IMG/VR virus record: IMGVR_UViG_3300025151_000006
Location: 1-41,723 of that record
Source of the DNA: a virus
Direction: 5' to 3' (one strand)
DNA: 41,723 nucleotides
The notes under the pieces are model-generated. The model ran no database searches. It worked only from the letters and a program-made list of their open reading frames with translations, and was not told where the DNA came from. The position numbers and the translations under genes are program-made. Positions 32,237 to 41,723 of the stretch are shown here, piece after piece (positions within the stretch are counted from its first letter, which is position 1; the number at the start of each line of letters is the position of its first letter).

Positions 32237-32443
32237 CTATTCTTTATGTTTTTCTTTTAAATTAAATAGTGATGCTAATTCACCCTGCACATCGTCTATC
32301 TTGAATGCTCTATACAGATCATCTAAACCGTATTGATTGTAGATAGTTACATTTATCTCATCCTTACACAAGGTACAGTAGTATCTGTCCATCCTCACAT
32401 CTTTGAACGTTGCGTCTGCTCTGTTACAACAATAACATCTCAT
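32237..32443 (-). CDS. Small zinc-ribbon-like protein
   Basis: 68 residues. C3, C5 and C6, then C23 and C26 (CTLC) form a probable zinc site in the first 26 residues; the rest is acidic helix. A strong AAAGGAGAG site overlaps the last operator half-site of promoter A upstream. Similar tiny zinc proteins in phages are often regulators, but no family is recognised. It ends just before the -35 region of the ThyX promoter. Confidence 0.72.
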   Translation of the reverse strand: MRCYCCNRADATFKDVRMDRYYCTLCKDEINVTIYNQYGLDDLYRAFKIDDVQGELASLFNLKEKHKE

Positions 32444-32452
32444 GTCTCTCTC

Positions 32453-32544
32453 CTTTAAGTATATTTGTTTAGAGTATTATTATACTTAAAACAATAATAC
32501 TTTAAGTAATAAGATAGGGTATCACAACTAAACTTATTTGTCAA
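32453..32544 (-). promoter_or_regulatory. Promoter A with operator-like dyads (copy of 36841-36945)
   Basis: Minus strand: TTGACA (32544-32539), 17-base spacer, TACCCT (32521-32516). Downstream are a perfect dyad TACTTTAAGTA (32498-32508), an inverted repeat AGTAT-N4-ATACT (32473-32486) and a half site merging into the AAAGGAG of the 68-residue gene. The block 32453-32524 is a diverged direct repeat of 36841-36925. Confidence 0.72.
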
Positions 32545-35497: not shown

Positions 35498-36118
35498 TTA
35501 ATACTTCTTAACTTTCTCTACTATAGTTGTAATACTATTTACAGTGTAACACAATCTACAATCAATGCAACGTTGACCAGTACAGTTTTGTTTATCGGTG
35601 TGTTCATCCTGCAACACGTTGTTGAACGTCTTATCAAAATGCTTTGGTGGCTTGCTCATGATATGTGACTTCTTTGGATTACTATAGATTAGTTGAAGGT
35701 TCTCTGGCTTCTCGTTGTCACGTAACCACCTAAAGACAAGGTCAACTCTCTTAGTCCATAAAGCAAACGTGCACCAAGGATTATCTTTGACGATAGCCAT
35801 TAAGTTCTCGAAGTGTTGCATGTTTATTAGTTCGCCATGTGCATTGAACCTAAACATTGCATCAGTCACTCGTGGTATCTCTTGCGGCTCTAGCGGTCTA
35901 CTCGACAACAAGTCACTATTGCGTTGTAATGATGCTTGCATGTTCTTACGATAGGTATTGAGCATAGCATGGGAATAACAATCTCCACAAATGTTTTTAC
36001 CGTCTTGTTTACCTTTGACGTGTTGCTTGTTGCAGTAGTCATTCGTAATTGTGTTTGTACTGATAGCCTTGAAACCGTCAAGTTTACCAGTCATTTTACT
36101 TATATGTACTTGTTGCAT
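35498..36118 (-). CDS. Cysteine-rich GP88-like phage protein
   Basis: 206 residues. N-terminal C29, C44 and C47 (CNKQHV...ICGDCYSHAM) and a C-terminal set C179, C184, C187, C190 (NCTGQRCIDCRLCY), plus C116. Between them is a TIM-like stretch (FRFNAHGELINM...WCTFALWTKRVDLVFRWL...LQLIYSNPKK). This resembles the GP88 and Gp37/Gp68 (DUF5131) phage families, thought to be radical-SAM-like or iron-sulfur proteins. The N-terminal spacing (C-x14-C-x2-C) differs from classical radical SAM, so function is open. Zinc binding is the alternative. AAGGGAATAAATAAA leads the ATG. Confidence 0.68.
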   Translation of the reverse strand: MQQVHISKMTGKLDGFKAISTNTITNDYCNKQHVKGKQDGKNICGDCYSHAMLNTYRKNMQASLQRNSDLLSSRPLEPQEIPRVTDAMFRFNAHGELINMQHFENLMAIVKDNPWCTFALWTKRVDLVFRWLRDNEKPENLQLIYSNPKKSHIMSKPPKHFDKTFNNVLQDEHTDKQNCTGQRCIDCRLCYTVNSITTIVEKVKKY

Positions 36119-36119
36119 T

Positions 36120-36281
36120 TTATTTATTCCCTTGTTGATTTATTTGCTGCATCAATTCATCAATCCTAGCTATAATTGGCGCATTCTTTTTTCTGTAAGC
36201 TATCTCTTTTATTTTCTCTAGCATTTCTTCACGTTCATCCCACGTTCCGAAAATAATTACCTTTTCTTCATCAATAGTCAT
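36120..36281 (-). CDS. 53-residue first gene of the leftward arm
   Basis: MTIDEEKVIIFGTWDEREEM, then helical basic EKIKEIAYRKKNAPIIARID. AAAGGAG at good spacing. First gene after the control region and overlapping the next start region by one codon base. Early protein of unknown role. Confidence 0.65.
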   Translation of the reverse strand: MTIDEEKVIIFGTWDEREEMLEKIKEIAYRKKNAPIIARIDELMQQINQQGNK

Positions 36282-36419
36282 GTTTTACTCCTTTGCTGTT
36301 GATTAATTAAGTAATCATAAAAACAGATAATGCAACAATTAATTTAAGTATTTTTAAAATAATTACTGAAAAGGTATAGTTTGTGTCTTTTATGCAACAC
36401 ATAAATGTATGCACTACAC

Positions 36420-36448
36420 ATTATAATATATACCCCATAGAACAAACA
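36420..36448 (-). promoter_or_regulatory. Possible leftward promoter with perfect TATAAT
   Basis: Minus strand: TGTTTG (36448-36443), 17-base spacer, TATAAT (36425-36420), about 140 bases before the first early gene. The -35 is poor, but a 22-base repeat (36449-36470) sits directly upstream, where an activator could bind. Confidence 0.45.
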
Positions 36449-36514
36449 CGATAGGTAAGAAGTGCTTACCAATTAATCCAATGGTATCAATTCGATAGGT
36501 AAGGATTGTTTACC
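36449..36514. repeat. Pair of 22-base repeats with inner dyad
   Basis: CGATAGGTAAG followed by AAGTGCTTACC at 36449-36470, and the same 22 positions with changes at 36493-36514 (GGTAAGGATTGTTTACC core). Each has GGTAA...TTACC arms; starts are 44 bases apart, close to four helical turns. Confidence 0.8.
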
Positions 36515-36537
36515 TTTTAAGTATTGCCACTACAAAG

Positions 36538-36600
36538 TAGTTTAACGTTAAACTATCTAGGGTAAATCCGTTTAGTATTAAATAGTTTAGTATTAAACTA
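36538..36600. repeat. Three 18-base operator-like dyads
   Basis: TAGTTTAACGTTAAACTA at 36538-36555 is a perfect 18-base palindrome. TAGTTTAGTATTAAACTA at 36583-36600 has the same arms with a changed centre. A third, partly overlapping copy of GTTTAGTATTAAA begins at 36570, 15 bases before the one at 36585. Confidence 0.85.
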
Positions 36601-36656
36601 GTTTGTGACCACATAATATACGTCAAGAGTGCTGACCTATTACTGTTTGTGATCAC
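36601..36656. repeat. Pair of 12-base repeats 44 bases apart
   Basis: GTTTGTGACCAC at 36601-36612 and GTTTGTGATCAC at 36645-36656. The 44-base offset equals that of the 22-base repeats. Confidence 0.7.
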
Positions 36657-36662
36657 GTTCTT

Positions 36663-36736
36663 GGTTTGTTCCAGGCAGGGGTGTCTTTGTTTACGGTTTG
36701 TTCCTGGGGTGGCAAGGGGGGTTTGGGGGGTACCCC
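36663..36736. repeat. GGTTTGTTCC pair, G-runs and GGGGTACCCC palindrome
   Basis: GGTTTGTTCC at 36663-36672 and 36695-36704. Four G-runs lie at 36678-36681, 36706-36709, 36716-36721 and 36725-36730 on the plus strand, able in principle to form a G-quadruplex with one long loop. GGGGTACCCC at 36727-36736 is a perfect palindrome. By far the most G-rich stretch of this A/T-rich genome. Confidence 0.75.
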
Positions 36737-36840
36737 TGTACTGTACAATACAACATAAAATTATCTCAGAAAAAGACGAGGCAATGCAACAAGCACAAGC
36801 GAATAGAATCTAGGTGGCGGTGTACACTTGTAGTACCTTA

Positions 36841-36945
36841 CTTTAAGTATCTTTGTTTAAAGTATAATATAATACTTATAACACAATACTTGTAAGGTAT
36901 ATTACTTAAAGTATATAGGGTATCATAAAGAAATCTTGTAGTCAA
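36841..36945 (-). promoter_or_regulatory. Promoter B with operator-like dyads (copy of 32453-32544)
   Basis: Minus strand: TTGACT (36945-36940), 17-base spacer, TACCCT (36922-36917). Around and below the start are TACTTAAAGTA (36903-36913), AAGTAT-N6-ATACTT (36860-36877) and TACTTTAAGTA (36839-36849). It points at the early arm with a leader of over 600 bases. Confidence 0.72.
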
Positions 36946-36979
36946 TAGCTTTTGCGAAAATAAATTTATAATTTTTTAC

Positions 36980-37019
36980 TTGACAATCACCCCTAAACCA
37001 TGTTAACATATAAGTATAG
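36980..37019 (+). promoter_or_regulatory. Promoter of family 1 before the small terminase
   Basis: TTGACA (36980-36985), 18-base spacer, TAACAT (37004-37009) starting the block TAACATATAAGTATAG (37004-37019), one change from the two minus-strand copies. It lies 33 bases before the small terminase ATG and could start the whole rightward arm. Confidence 0.75.
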
Positions 37020-37051
37020 GGGAAGGAAACAATGTTTCTAAGGAGATAACC

Positions 37052-37594
37052 ATGTCTATGTATAGCCTATCACAACTAAAGACAGATAACGGAATAATAA
37101 GAACCAAGAGTTTATTCTACGAATTATCTTATGATGATCCTGACTTTGCTTTGTTTACTCTCAAAGAAGAAGACATAGTGATGCCTAACGGTAAGTCAGC
37201 TACTGCTCTAGGTAAGTTATACATAGCCTTTGCAACAATGGACCCTACAGAGTACCAGTTCGCTAACGCAGTGTTTGGGAGTTGGGAAGTATGGGAAAAG
37301 ATGCAAACAACTGTACCACTCAAGAAACATATCGATAAGTGGCGCAGAGAAGCAGAGGTCAAACGTAAGTCAATGGCCTTTGAGTCTGTAGTAAAAGAAA
37401 TACAAGAAGGTGGGCGAAGTAGTTTTACTGCAGCTAAGTTCCTGATCAACGAGGAATGGAAGTCTAGAGAAGACGGAAGAACAGCCCGAAAAGAAAAGAA
37501 CGCTAAAGATAAATCTACATCTCAAGAAGCTTTTGAGAGAGCAGGTGTAAACGATGATCTTAAAAGATTAAAAGATCAAGGTCTAATTAATTAG
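37052..37594 (+). CDS. Terminase small subunit (probable)
   Basis: 180 residues. RTKSLFYELSYDDPDFALFTLKEED near the N terminus, a helical centre with WEVWEKMQTTVPLKKHIDKWRREAEVKRKSMAFESVV, and a charged tail (TARKEKNAKDKSTS). This pattern occurs in small terminases of marine T7-like phages, which bind the packaging start and recruit the large subunit. AAGGAG site seven bases before the ATG. First gene of the rightward arm, next to the repeat-rich control region, a natural place for a packaging signal. It is 5 kb from the large subunit in circular distance. Confidence 0.75.
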   Translation: MSMYSLSQLKTDNGIIRTKSLFYELSYDDPDFALFTLKEEDIVMPNGKSATALGKLYIAFATMDPTEYQFANAVFGSWEVWEKMQTTVPLKKHIDKWRREAEVKRKSMAFESVVKEIQEGGRSSFTAAKFLINEEWKSREDGRTARKEKNAKDKSTSQEAFERAGVNDDLKRLKDQGLIN

Positions 37595-39724: not shown

Positions 39725-40114
39725 ATGGCAGATAAAAGATTATGCAGAAGTTGTAATCAAGTAAAATCTTTAGATAGGTTTAGAAAAAATAAGTATTGTT
39801 CAGATGGTGTTACTCATCAATGTAAGGATTGCCATTACGTCTCACAAAGAAATGGTGAACTAAAAAGAAACTTTGGTATATCCTACGCAGAATACTTAAT
39901 AATGTTAGATGAACAGCAAAATCAATGCGCTATATGTGCAACAGATGCTTCTGAGTTTGATAAATCTTTTGCAGTAGATCATTGTCACTCAACAGGTAAA
40001 GTTAGAGGTTTATTATGTTGGCACTGCAATACAAGTATTGGTAAGTTTAAAGACGATGTAGAATTATTACAACGAGCTATAAAATACTTACAGATACATA
40101 AGGAAGATAAATAA
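39725..40114 (+). CDS. Endonuclease VII-like nuclease inserted in the fibre module
   Basis: 129 residues. C68/C71 and C98/C101 make the zinc site; VDHCHSTGKVRGLLCWHCN holds D85, H86 and N102, the catalytic set of T4 gp49 (endonuclease VII). C7/C10 and C33/C36 form a second N-terminal zinc site. It cuts DNA, either junctions or, as a free-standing homing-type enzyme, a target site. The start has no clear ribosome site and the stop overlaps the fibre start (TAATG), so it fits tightly but looks foreign among structural genes. Codons are A/T-rich compared with neighbours. Confidence 0.86.
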   Translation: MADKRLCRSCNQVKSLDRFRKNKYCSDGVTHQCKDCHYVSQRNGELKRNFGISYAEYLIMLDEQQNQCAICATDASEFDKSFAVDHCHSTGKVRGLLCWHCNTSIGKFKDDVELLQRAIKYLQIHKEDK

Positions 40115-41723
40115 TGGCAAGTAAAAAGAAATTACTCCAAGCAGCCGCAGGTGCAGCAGGTGGCGCAGGTCTTGATATAGACGAGGCGTTCAGCACCTAT
40201 TTGTATGAAGGAAATGGCTCTTCAAAAACAATTACTAATAACATTGACCTAAGTGGCGAAGGTGGTTTGGTTTGGACTAAAACTAGAGATATAGCTGATT
40301 CCCATAGATTATTTGATACAGCAAGAGGTGGAAGTTTTGAGTTAGGCTCTCATAGCACAGCAGGTAATGGCGGTGGAATGAATGTCACCTTTAACTCAAA
40401 TGGTTTTACATTAGGTAATTCATCTTCAAGTAACTCTAGTGGTAATGATTTTGTCTCTTGGACATTCCGCAAAGCCCCTAAGTTCTTTGATGTTGTGACG
40501 TATACTGGAGATGGAACAAATGGTCGTTCTGTTTCACATAACTTAGGCACCACAGTTGGGATGATAATCTTAAAAAGAACTGATGCATCAGGTGATGATT
40601 GGCAGGTTTTTCATAGGTATGCCACTAATAAAAGGTTGGAACTAAACAATACTGACGCAGCCGCAGCAACTACTCTTTGGGGTTCTGGCCCAACATCAAC
40701 CAATTTTACAGTAGATAACGCATCTTTTAGTAATGCCTCTGGCGCAACCTACGTAGCCTACCTATTCGCACACAACAACAATGACGGTGAGTTCGGCCCT
40801 GATAGTGACCAAGATGTTATTAAGTGTGGGAGTTATACTGGTAATGGTAATCCTTCTTCTGGCCCTGATATTAATTTAGGATTTGAACCTCAGTGGTTAA
40901 TGATTAAAAGAACAGATAGTTCTGGTGGTGGTCACAGTTGGCGCATATTTGATGCTATGCGTGGTTTTGTTGTTGATGGAACGGATTCTATTTTAAAAGC
41001 AGACGCTACTACCGATGAAGCTGGAAATAATTTTAAAGCTGTACGCCCAACTTCAACAGGATTTAAACTCGAAAGTGCAAGTGCAGGTGTAAATGCGAAT
41101 GGCGGCACCTACATATTCATGGCAATCCGCAGAGGCCCACTCGCAGAGCCTTCAAGTGCGACTGATGTGTTTGCTATTGATCAAGAAAATAGCTCTGAAC
41201 CATATTTTACCAGTGGGTTTCCTGTAGATTTCGCAATAGCTAAATGGCATAATGCAACACAAGCTTGGAGAGCTTACTCTAGACTTACACAAGGTAAAGA
41301 ACTTTACCCCAATGAAACTGGTGCAGAAGGGGTTGAGGCAGACGCTGTTTTTGATTATATGGACGGTCATTATAGTGCTTCACAAAACTCAGGTTACTAC
41401 TCATGGATGTGGAAACGTGCACCTGGCTATTTCGATGTGGTTGCTTATCAAGGATCAGGAAGCATGGGTCTTACACTAAACCATAATCTTGGTGCAGTAC
41501 CTGAGATGATTTGGGTTAAAAATAGATCAGCTAATAACGATGATTGGTTTGTCTATCATTCTGCTTTAGGAAATACTAAATGGTTAGAGTTAAACACAAC
41601 TGCTGCTGAACAAACACATCAAGCTGCTTGGAATAACACATCACCGACTGCTACACAATTTACTGTTGGAGCTTATAATGGTGTTAATGGTTCAAGTGGA
41701 TACCACTACATAGCCTACCTTTT
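40114..41723 (+). CDS. Tail fibre protein, DUF7483-type, 5' part (continues at 1-412)
   Basis: Open to the window end without a stop, and continues in frame at base 2; whole protein about 640 residues. An Ala/Gly/Lys-rich start (ASKKKLLQAAAGAAGG) is followed by alternating repeat types: one with FFDVVTYTGDGTNGRSVSHNLG and later FDVVAYQGSGSMGLTLNHNLG, the other with IKCGSYTGNGNPSSGP and LMIKRTD. These are marine phage DUF7483-type modules, with the HNLGxxxxMIxxK core. Probably the receptor-binding fibre. The ATG overlaps the endonuclease stop. Confidence 0.82.
   Translation, partial: MASKKKLLQAAAGAAGGAGLDIDEAFSTYLYEGNGSSKTITNNIDLSGEGGLVWTKTRDIADSHRLFDTARGGSFELGSHSTAGNGGGMNVTFNSNGFTLGNSSSSNSSGNDFVSWTFRKAPKFFDVVTYTGDGTNGRSVSHNLGTTVGMIILKRTDASGDDWQVFHRYATNKRLELNNTDAAAATTLWGSGPTSTNFTVDNASFSNASGATYVAYLFAHNNNDGEFGPDSDQDVIKCGSYTGNGNPSSGPDINLGFEPQWLMIKRTDSSGGGHSWRIFDAMRGFVVDGTDSILKADATTDEAGNNFKAVRPTSTGFKLESASAGVNANGGTYIFMAIRRGPLAEPSSATDVFAIDQENSSEPYFTSGFPVDFAIAKWHNATQAWRAYSRLTQGKELYPNETGAEGVEADAVFDYMDGHYSASQNSGYYSWMWKRAPGYFDVVAYQGSGSMGLTLNHNLGAVPEMIWVKNRSANNDDWFVYHSALGNTKWLELNTTAAEQTHQAAWNNTSPTATQFTVGAYNGVNGSSGYHYIAYL
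41625..41723. repeat. 99-base terminal overlap with 1-99 (assembly circle)
   Basis: Bases 41625-41723 equal 1-99 exactly, and both copies sit in the same reading frame of one fibre gene. The contig is therefore circular as assembled; 99 is a usual k-mer length, so this is more likely an assembly overlap than a biological terminal repeat. Confidence 0.9.

Follow-up and report, generated by a model that had tools for sequence, protein, structure and literature searches.

The region at 36282–37051 of a 41,723-base IMG/VR virus record, the whole of which was analysed and is called the window here, raises the question of what a repeat-dense tract between two divergent gene arms does for the phage that carries it. 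The first-pass annotation proposed that it could be replication origin, packaging site and transcription switch at once, with a set of features known from no other phage.

Setting and composition of the inter-arm region

The phage is a cobavirus (Zobellviridae). PHROG matches in the window include TerL, portal, primase/helicase, T7-like polymerase, ribonucleotide reductase (RNR) and ThyX, and the two-arm genome with a cobalamin-dependent RNR, T7-like polymerase, primase/helicase and ThyX is that of the Cobavirinae. Placement in this subfamily is based on the PHROG matches and on the 82% identity between the protein encoded at 37052–37594 and that of Roseobacter phage CRP-4 (Zobellviridae, Cobavirinae, Veravirus), the closest isolate by this protein; Lentibacter phage ICBM2 and CRP-5 are next nearest. 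The tract does have the leftward early arm on one side and the rightward structural arm on the other, but the name small terminase given earlier to its right-hand neighbour was not confirmed. This first right-arm gene (37052–37594, plus strand, 180 aa) is TerS by position only. Its product falls in PHROG 8035, of unknown function, searches returned no match to a TerS family and no Pfam, NCBIfam or useful PDB profile match, and its AlphaFold model is weak (mean pLDDT 54.6).

The only open reading frame of at least 60 aa within 36282–37051 is a 65-aa TTG frame at 36698–36895, which spans the cut signature described below and was not accepted as a gene, leaving the 770 bases gene-free as first described. 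The repeat density is likewise real. Fourteen direct repeat families and 10 inverted pairs were found in 36100–37200, and 36282–37051 contains 34 positions of repeated 10-mers, compared with an average of 6.2 in shuffled sequence (maximum 29, n = 300) and no more than 18 in any of the 103 other 770-base tiles of the window. It exceeds all of these tiles for repeated 9-, 10- and 11-mers and all 300 shuffles for 9- and 10-mers, and is slightly below the top shuffle for 11-mers (18 against 20). The further claim that the tract holds the G-richest stretch of the window is correct at 30 bases (0.60, start 36704) and 60 bases (0.48, start 36672) but not at 100 bases, where the leading place, 11081, is outside the control region.

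Predicted genome end and divergent promoters

In the cobaviruses ICBM1–3, PacBio reads revealed direct terminal repeats of 159–173 bp that occupy the inter-arm gap and have a conserved G+C-rich end (Bischoff et al. 2019, PMC6775973). In window orientation, the annotated ICBM2 repeat (159 bp) terminates at GGGGGTAGCCTGCTGTATGTACAAT and that of ICBM1 (172 bp) at GGGGGTGGCCTGCTGTATGTACAAC, and both have GGGGGTNGCCTGCTGTATGTACAAY immediately before the cut. The window carries a G-rich signature of this kind within its inter-arm gap, GGGGGGTACCCCTGTACTGTACAAT at 36725–36749 on the plus strand, as do 37 of the 48 loci examined; it is present in 33 of 41 IMG/VR relatives, the remaining eight being too short on the upstream side of the gene. 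The comparison supports reading the G-rich stretch as the conserved terminus of a cobavirus direct terminal repeat.

A direct terminal repeat of 227 bp is predicted at 36523–36749. Its right end, with the cut directly after TGTACTGTACAAT, is placed by homology to the annotated repeats of both ICBM1 and ICBM2. Its left end, TATTGCCACTA, is placed only by homology to ICBM2 TATTTCCCCTA, with two mismatches: the ICBM2 repeat begins ATTTCCCCTATG, the window counterpart is at 36522–36532, and the motif is not in ICBM1. The left end is the weaker of the two predictions. None of the contig starts in the list of loci coincides with the predicted cut, and contig ends thus lend the terminus no support. 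The predicted end is internal to the record, which breaks (window ends 1 and 41723) within a tail-fibre-like gene (40114–41721), as is expected of a contig assembled across joined ends.

Conservation among close relatives, the check proposed for this region, was examined in 20 non-redundant relatives (20 of 24 rows kept), and the region withstands this attempt at refutation. Conserved blocks at 36450–36529, at the terminus (36730–36769) and at the two promoters, PL (36810–36929) and PR, stand out from poorly conserved surroundings. The proposed packaging site is retained as a predicted cut at a genome end, backed by homology to the ICBM1 and ICBM2 repeat ends. The HMO-2011-type roseophages CRP-1, CRP-2 and CRP-13 (L055, L310 and L050) have a comparable double G run, and then GTAC, near their operator sites, and their genome ends may be located there as well.

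The two promoters on opposite strands are upheld by conservation. A generic promoter scan gave no excess (7 sites, compared with 5.8 ± 2.2 in shuffles), and because single-sequence scans are at chance level the calls rest on the relatives. PR (TTGACA-N18-TAACAT, 36980–37009, plus strand) would serve the structural arm, and TTGACA-N16..18 with a -10 precedes the first right-arm gene in 37/37 loci. PL (TTGACT-N18-TACCCTAT, 36915–36945, minus strand) matches a strict pattern, TTGACW-N16..18-TACCCTAT, that is shared by 22 of 24 window-like loci and absent from L020 and L021, while all 13 distant loci have a leftward TTGACA-N16..18 with a TATAAT-like -10. PL is oriented through the terminal repeat toward the early arm. 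It follows from this predicted anatomy that PL would run off the right end of a linear genome and would be upstream of the early arm only after the ends join. Phage T7 also has a direct terminal repeat and a right-end promoter, phiOR, that points out through it and is used by the phage's own RNA polymerase. PL is like phiOR in position and direction, but PL and PR are host-type promoters.

Palindromes of the TACTTTAAGTA type lie downstream of PL at 36838–36914, in a tract of high conservation (36830–36929). An RNA element in this leader was considered and rejected: single sequences form a hairpin, but a 13-sequence alignment gave 0 pairs and Rfam returned none, and the inverted repeats are read as DNA palindromes. 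The strict PL pattern occurs only twice in the window, at PL and at a twin inside the early arm (32514–32544, minus strand, starting at 32544) that has the same palindromes at 32451–32508 and is present in 13 relatives. The twin, with its TACTTTAAGTA palindromes (32237–32544), drives a small cysteine-rich protein (MRCYCCN...), which is conserved in relatives and may be a phage regulator. On the other side of the terminal repeat, ATTATAAT at 36420–36427 is a possible -10 of an early promoter on the left segment. It has no -35, its direction is ambiguous, and the block is conserved in most aligned rows and missing from some.

Repeats resembling host operators

Three palindromes of the form GATAGGTMAG-N5-YTKACS occupy 36450–36640. 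Copies 1 (GATAGGTAAGAAGTGCTTACC, 36450–36470) and 2 (GATAGGTAAGGATTGTTTACC, 36494–36514) lie just to the left of the terminal repeat, 44 bp from each other, and are conserved among relatives; copy 3 is inverted (36620–36640, minus strand) and within the predicted repeat. As a host motif, GGTAAG palindromes (GATAGGTAAG-N5-CTTACC) were discarded, with a match in 1/6 genomes, at one mismatch.

The other families resemble operators of three bacterial regulators. A CceR-type site, TAGTTTAACGTTAAACTA, is at 36538–36555, with a near copy, TAGTTTAGTATTAAACTA, at 36583–36600 and a weaker copy overlapping the latter at 36568–36585. AkgR-type sites are found at 36602–36613 (TTTGTGACCACA, one palindrome mismatch, at a place where several relatives have intact GTGATCAC) and at 36646–36657 (TTTGTGATCACG, a motif given in PMC6365646); measured against the GTGATCAC palindrome, one of the two is intact and the other imperfect. 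A LexA-type box, GTTCTTGGTTTGTTC, follows at 36657–36671 on the plus strand, and a degenerate one, GTTTACGGTTTGTTC, at 36689–36703 on the same strand, where some relatives have an intact GTTCN7GTTC. TAGTTTAACGTTAAACTA, its near copy, TTTGTGACCACA, TTTGTGATCACG and GTTCTTGGTTTGTTC each have a very low chance expectation, and the AkgR and CceR sites of the window are confined to the predicted terminal repeat.

A scan of bacterial genomes for paired TTGTGATCACA returned 44 stretches, many of them alphaproteobacterial, with genes for GntR/FCD regulators near the paired sites; both Pfam domains were present in 6/6 genes tested. These loci led to six Rhodobacteraceae genomes, which were searched for the motifs. 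At one mismatch, TTTGTGATCACAAA has 3–5 sites per genome, against 0–1 for a reversed control. It precedes its own GntR/FCD gene (L277, L279 and L284), has a place at sdhC (L282), and, in 4 of 5 loci examined, forms a pair, 21 bp apart, that precedes sucC by 102–135 bases; a first reading that put these pairs before mdh was wrong, since they are downstream of mdh and before sucC. The motif GTGATCAC has been linked to AkgR of Rhodobacter sphaeroides (PMC6365646), and the GntR regulator RSP_0981 is predicted to control sucCD, sdh and the 2-oxoglutarate dehydrogenase genes (PMC4344238).

The CceR-type palindrome, TAGTTTA-N4-TAAACTA, precedes maeB, pdhA and lpd in hosts. A perfect copy of the 18-mer TAGTTTAACGTTAAACTA is present in 3/6 Rhodobacteraceae genomes (G002, G003 and G004, before malic enzyme) and a copy with at most one mismatch in 6/6, and 9 of the 11 places listed at up to two mismatches are 3–33 bases before genes for malic enzyme (4), pdhA (3) or lpd (2). 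Two maeB and one pdhA were confirmed with NCBIfam, which was also applied to two mdh genes; sucC and several copies of maeB, pdhA and lpd were recognised by eye. TAGTTTAACGTTAAACTA fits the motif of the LacI-type regulator RSP_1663, [AGT]GTT-N6..8-AAC[ACT]; malic enzyme and PdhAB belong to the regulon predicted for this regulator. We take RSP_0981 to be AkgR and RSP_1663 to be CceR. The effector named for CceR is 6-phosphogluconate. No LacI-family gene was found in G001, though this genome has the pdhA site. GTTCN7GTTC, the Caulobacter LexA motif (PMC12700426), is upstream of lexA in 6/6 genomes, one host box reading GTTCTTGCTCTGTTC and the phage loci GTTCTTGCTTTGTTC.

Each motif thus stands where an operator of its regulator would be expected, AkgR-type sites before TCA genes, CceR-type sites before malic enzyme and pdh genes, and LexA boxes upstream of lexA. 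The terminal-repeat palindromes look like copies of host operators, CceR-like for the pyruvate node, AkgR-like for the TCA cycle and LexA for the SOS response. Operators of a phage-encoded repressor, like the host sites by chance or common ancestry, would be the alternative, and a small HTH protein is annotated in the early arm of both ICBM1 and ICBM2; however, the exact identity of the 18-mer with host maeB sites, the presence of three different host motifs and the absence of a GntR or LacI gene from the window in a six-frame search make this very improbable.

Two further bacterial arrangements were seen. In Reyranella and other Alphaproteobacteria (L061, L062, L080, L086, L091 and L103) a conserved TTTGTGATCACAAA pair, 57 bp apart, adjoins GntR/FCD and class III aminotransferase genes and is a bacterial regulon of its own, and a contig of an Opitutaceae MAG has four successive paired-TTGTGATCACA matches (L104:5573–5934), as if in a tandem array.

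The composition of the array differs between relatives. At the same places, other loci have three GTGATCAC, or GTTCN7GTTC alone, or neither, and the adjacent TerS-position protein changes little or not at all between loci whose arrays differ. Our first reading, that the palindromes and GTTC repeats are terminase sites, was rejected because of this near-identity, because CRP-9 and CRP-13, which have another terminase, carry the same palindromes, and because host genomes carry the motifs at metabolic genes.

Distribution, geometry and possible roles of the arrays

For paired TTGTGATCACA the viral stretches number at least 120, where a composition-matched scrambled palindrome gives 10; paired TAGTTTA palindromes are present in 41 viral contigs, against none for the scrambled control. 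Co-occurrence was surveyed in 119 of the at least 120 AkgR stretches (L030 omitted) and all 41 CceR stretches. In the 41 loci found by CceR sites alone, 52 copies of GTGATCAC lie within 300 bp, and the other 365 kb hold a single one; for the LexA box the counts are 13 near the array and 12 elsewhere, a 16-fold difference in density. Among the matches listed for the 119 AkgR loci, LexA boxes reach a 21-fold higher density near the array, and all 12 CceR sites are close to it. Best protein matches among the loci listed resemble cobaviruses, CRP-9/13-type or CRP-1-type phages in 132 of 159 cases and none of these in 27.

Among the matches listed, 148 non-identical arrays comprise 55 in divergent gaps, 26 in tandem and 7 in convergent ones, besides 5 in ORFs and 55 at contig edges, the last two classes being excluded from the count of direction; divergent gene pairs overall in the array loci number 210 of 1871. 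Isolates vary. An array is present in the inter-arm gap of 4 of 11 examined (CRP-1, -2, -3 and -7 scanned as 50,000-base stretches, CRP-9 from 6200, and CRP-13 without 50001–52999), and CRP-13 has one while CRP-4, which infects the same strain, does not. CRP-13 and CRP-9 are described as recombinants in which the replication module is cobavirus-like and the packaging module is of HMO-2011 type (PMC8528129), and both have the same palindromes in their own inter-arm gaps, that of CRP-13 lying at 54639–54879. The host of these two phages is the RCA Roseobacter FZCC0023. AkgR sites are found in the HMO-2011-type phages CRP-1 and CRP-2 as well. This last distribution speaks against a replication origin with iterons, for which an AT-rich, repeat-dense, intergenic tract would be suitable; the motifs match host promoters, the GC skew merely follows gene direction, and no evidence was found for the origin suggested earlier, which we consider extremely improbable.

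The sites are phased. Spacings between AkgR sites peak near 22, 31–32, 42–44, 53 and 64, with a period of 10.5–11 bp (R about 0.6, 175 spacings) that none of 2000 jittered sets reaches; the search pattern set the range of the spacings, not their phase. Phasing is kept in 47 representatives (R 0.60, 73 spacings), is also seen for CceR sites (R 0.75, 35 spacings), and is slight in bacterial loci. The sites are concentrated in one noncoding region and avoid strong sigma-70-like promoters, with 9 site-promoter pairs between -160 and +200 where about 48 would be expected, a count to be read with the shared ancestry of the loci in mind and one that would miss activator-dependent promoters. The distances from the array to -10 elements show no clear peak (76 oriented arrays, 47 representatives).

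A double G run is within 400 bp of 69 of 111 arrays among the matches listed (37 near-edge arrays left out), and in 56 of these 69 the array is 5′ of the run on the G strand. IHF bends or marks DNA for terminase at lambda cos, and host proteins bound to the terminal repeat could act in the same way. This arrangement and the phasing would fit such a packaging architecture, but ICBM1, ICBM2, CRP-4 and CRP-5 have no array and keep the terminus signature, and the array is therefore not needed for the terminus as such. Together with the identity of the TerS-position protein across loci with differing arrays, this makes a packaging role improbable.

The best explanation is a cobavirus genome-end control region in which an array of host operators is tied to early transcription. 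Its parts, the terminus, the promoters and the operator matches, are very likely correct, and binding of host proteins to the predicted sites is probable; the explanation as a whole is modestly favoured, the imperfect AkgR sites of the window, the distance of the operators from strong promoters, the missing -10 peak, the patchy occurrence of arrays and the lack of a LacI-family hit in G001 counting against it. Host CceR-like, AkgR-like and LexA proteins would bind the phased array in the infected cell and assemble into a genome-end complex lying between PL and the early arm, as the phasing and the mixture of sites suggest. With the ends joined, early transcription would be read-through from PL, and on a linear genome it would start from the left-segment promoter, in either case depending on the carbon and DNA-damage state of the host. 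Control of early transcription is plausible given the precedents of CtrA, LexA and Spo0A, and the transcription switch of the first-pass annotation is plausible to that extent: the repeats match operators, those of three families apparently host ones.

The array could instead be a sponge. Multiplying phage DNA would present hundreds of phased operators that pull CceR, AkgR and LexA away from chromosomal sites. With less drive on the TCA cycle, host carbon would pass more through glycolysis and the pentose phosphate pathway, and SOS genes would be released. The multiple copies, their location away from promoters, the position-for-position replacement of one regulator's sites by those of another in relatives, and the mere 3–5 chromosomal AkgR sites, which phage copies could outnumber, are all in keeping with titration, as is the action of Paracoccus CceR, which represses glycolytic and activates gluconeogenic enzymes. 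However, a simple sponge needs no strict helical phasing, and a single incoming genome has too few sites for early action. Titration is accordingly held to be rather unlikely. That the array controls phage genes rather than titrating regulators is held to be somewhat short of probable, and between the two mechanisms we lean slightly to control.

Parts of this arrangement have been described. The window is like ICBM1, ICBM2 and SIO1 in having a repeat in an ORF-free inter-arm gap with a G+C-rich end and the same cut signature (PMC6775973), but by the patterns used their repeats lack AkgR, CceR and LexA sites. It is like the CtrA-site phages (phiCbk-like, vB_BsubS-Delta and Pasto), also alphaproteobacterial, in having host-regulator sites in terminal repeats or inter-arm gaps (PMC9437464). 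Theirs are sites of low positional entropy for one cell-cycle regulator, located at promoters, with binding and regulation proven (PMC9437464), whereas the window has putative sites for three regulators of carbon metabolism and SOS, phased and away from strong promoters. Phages CTX, GIL01 and phi29 likewise co-opt host LexA or Spo0A through operators in the phage genome, but these sites are in phage promoters, unlike the mixed arrays at the genome end here. Searches of openly licensed PMC papers brought up no arrays of AkgR, CceR and LexA sites in phages. The earlier statement that no phage is known with this set consequently needs qualifying, as the exact set was not found but the terminal repeat of cobaviruses and the concentration of CtrA sites in terminal repeats are known; the new element is that the repeats look like host operators.

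The arrays suggest that the phage reads or soaks up host control proteins. In a wider and rather doubtful form of this idea, helically phased and exchangeable operator arrays in the genome ends of several lineages of marine Rhodobacteraceae phages would be a metabolic takeover device, assembling CceR, AkgR and LexA and sequestering them at high copy so that DNA alone, with no auxiliary metabolic gene, reroutes carbon toward nucleotide synthesis. The operators could indicate a Rhodobacteraceae host from sequence and, combined with the G-rich signature, allow the genome ends of uncultured relatives to be placed from contigs. If CceR, AkgR and LexA do bind the phage ends, abundant marine phages would be tied to the carbon and damage state of their hosts through noncoding DNA and not through auxiliary metabolic genes. 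This would widen the CtrA precedent from the cell cycle to central metabolism, and would offer a direct test of how phages are coupled to slow-growing ocean bacteria.
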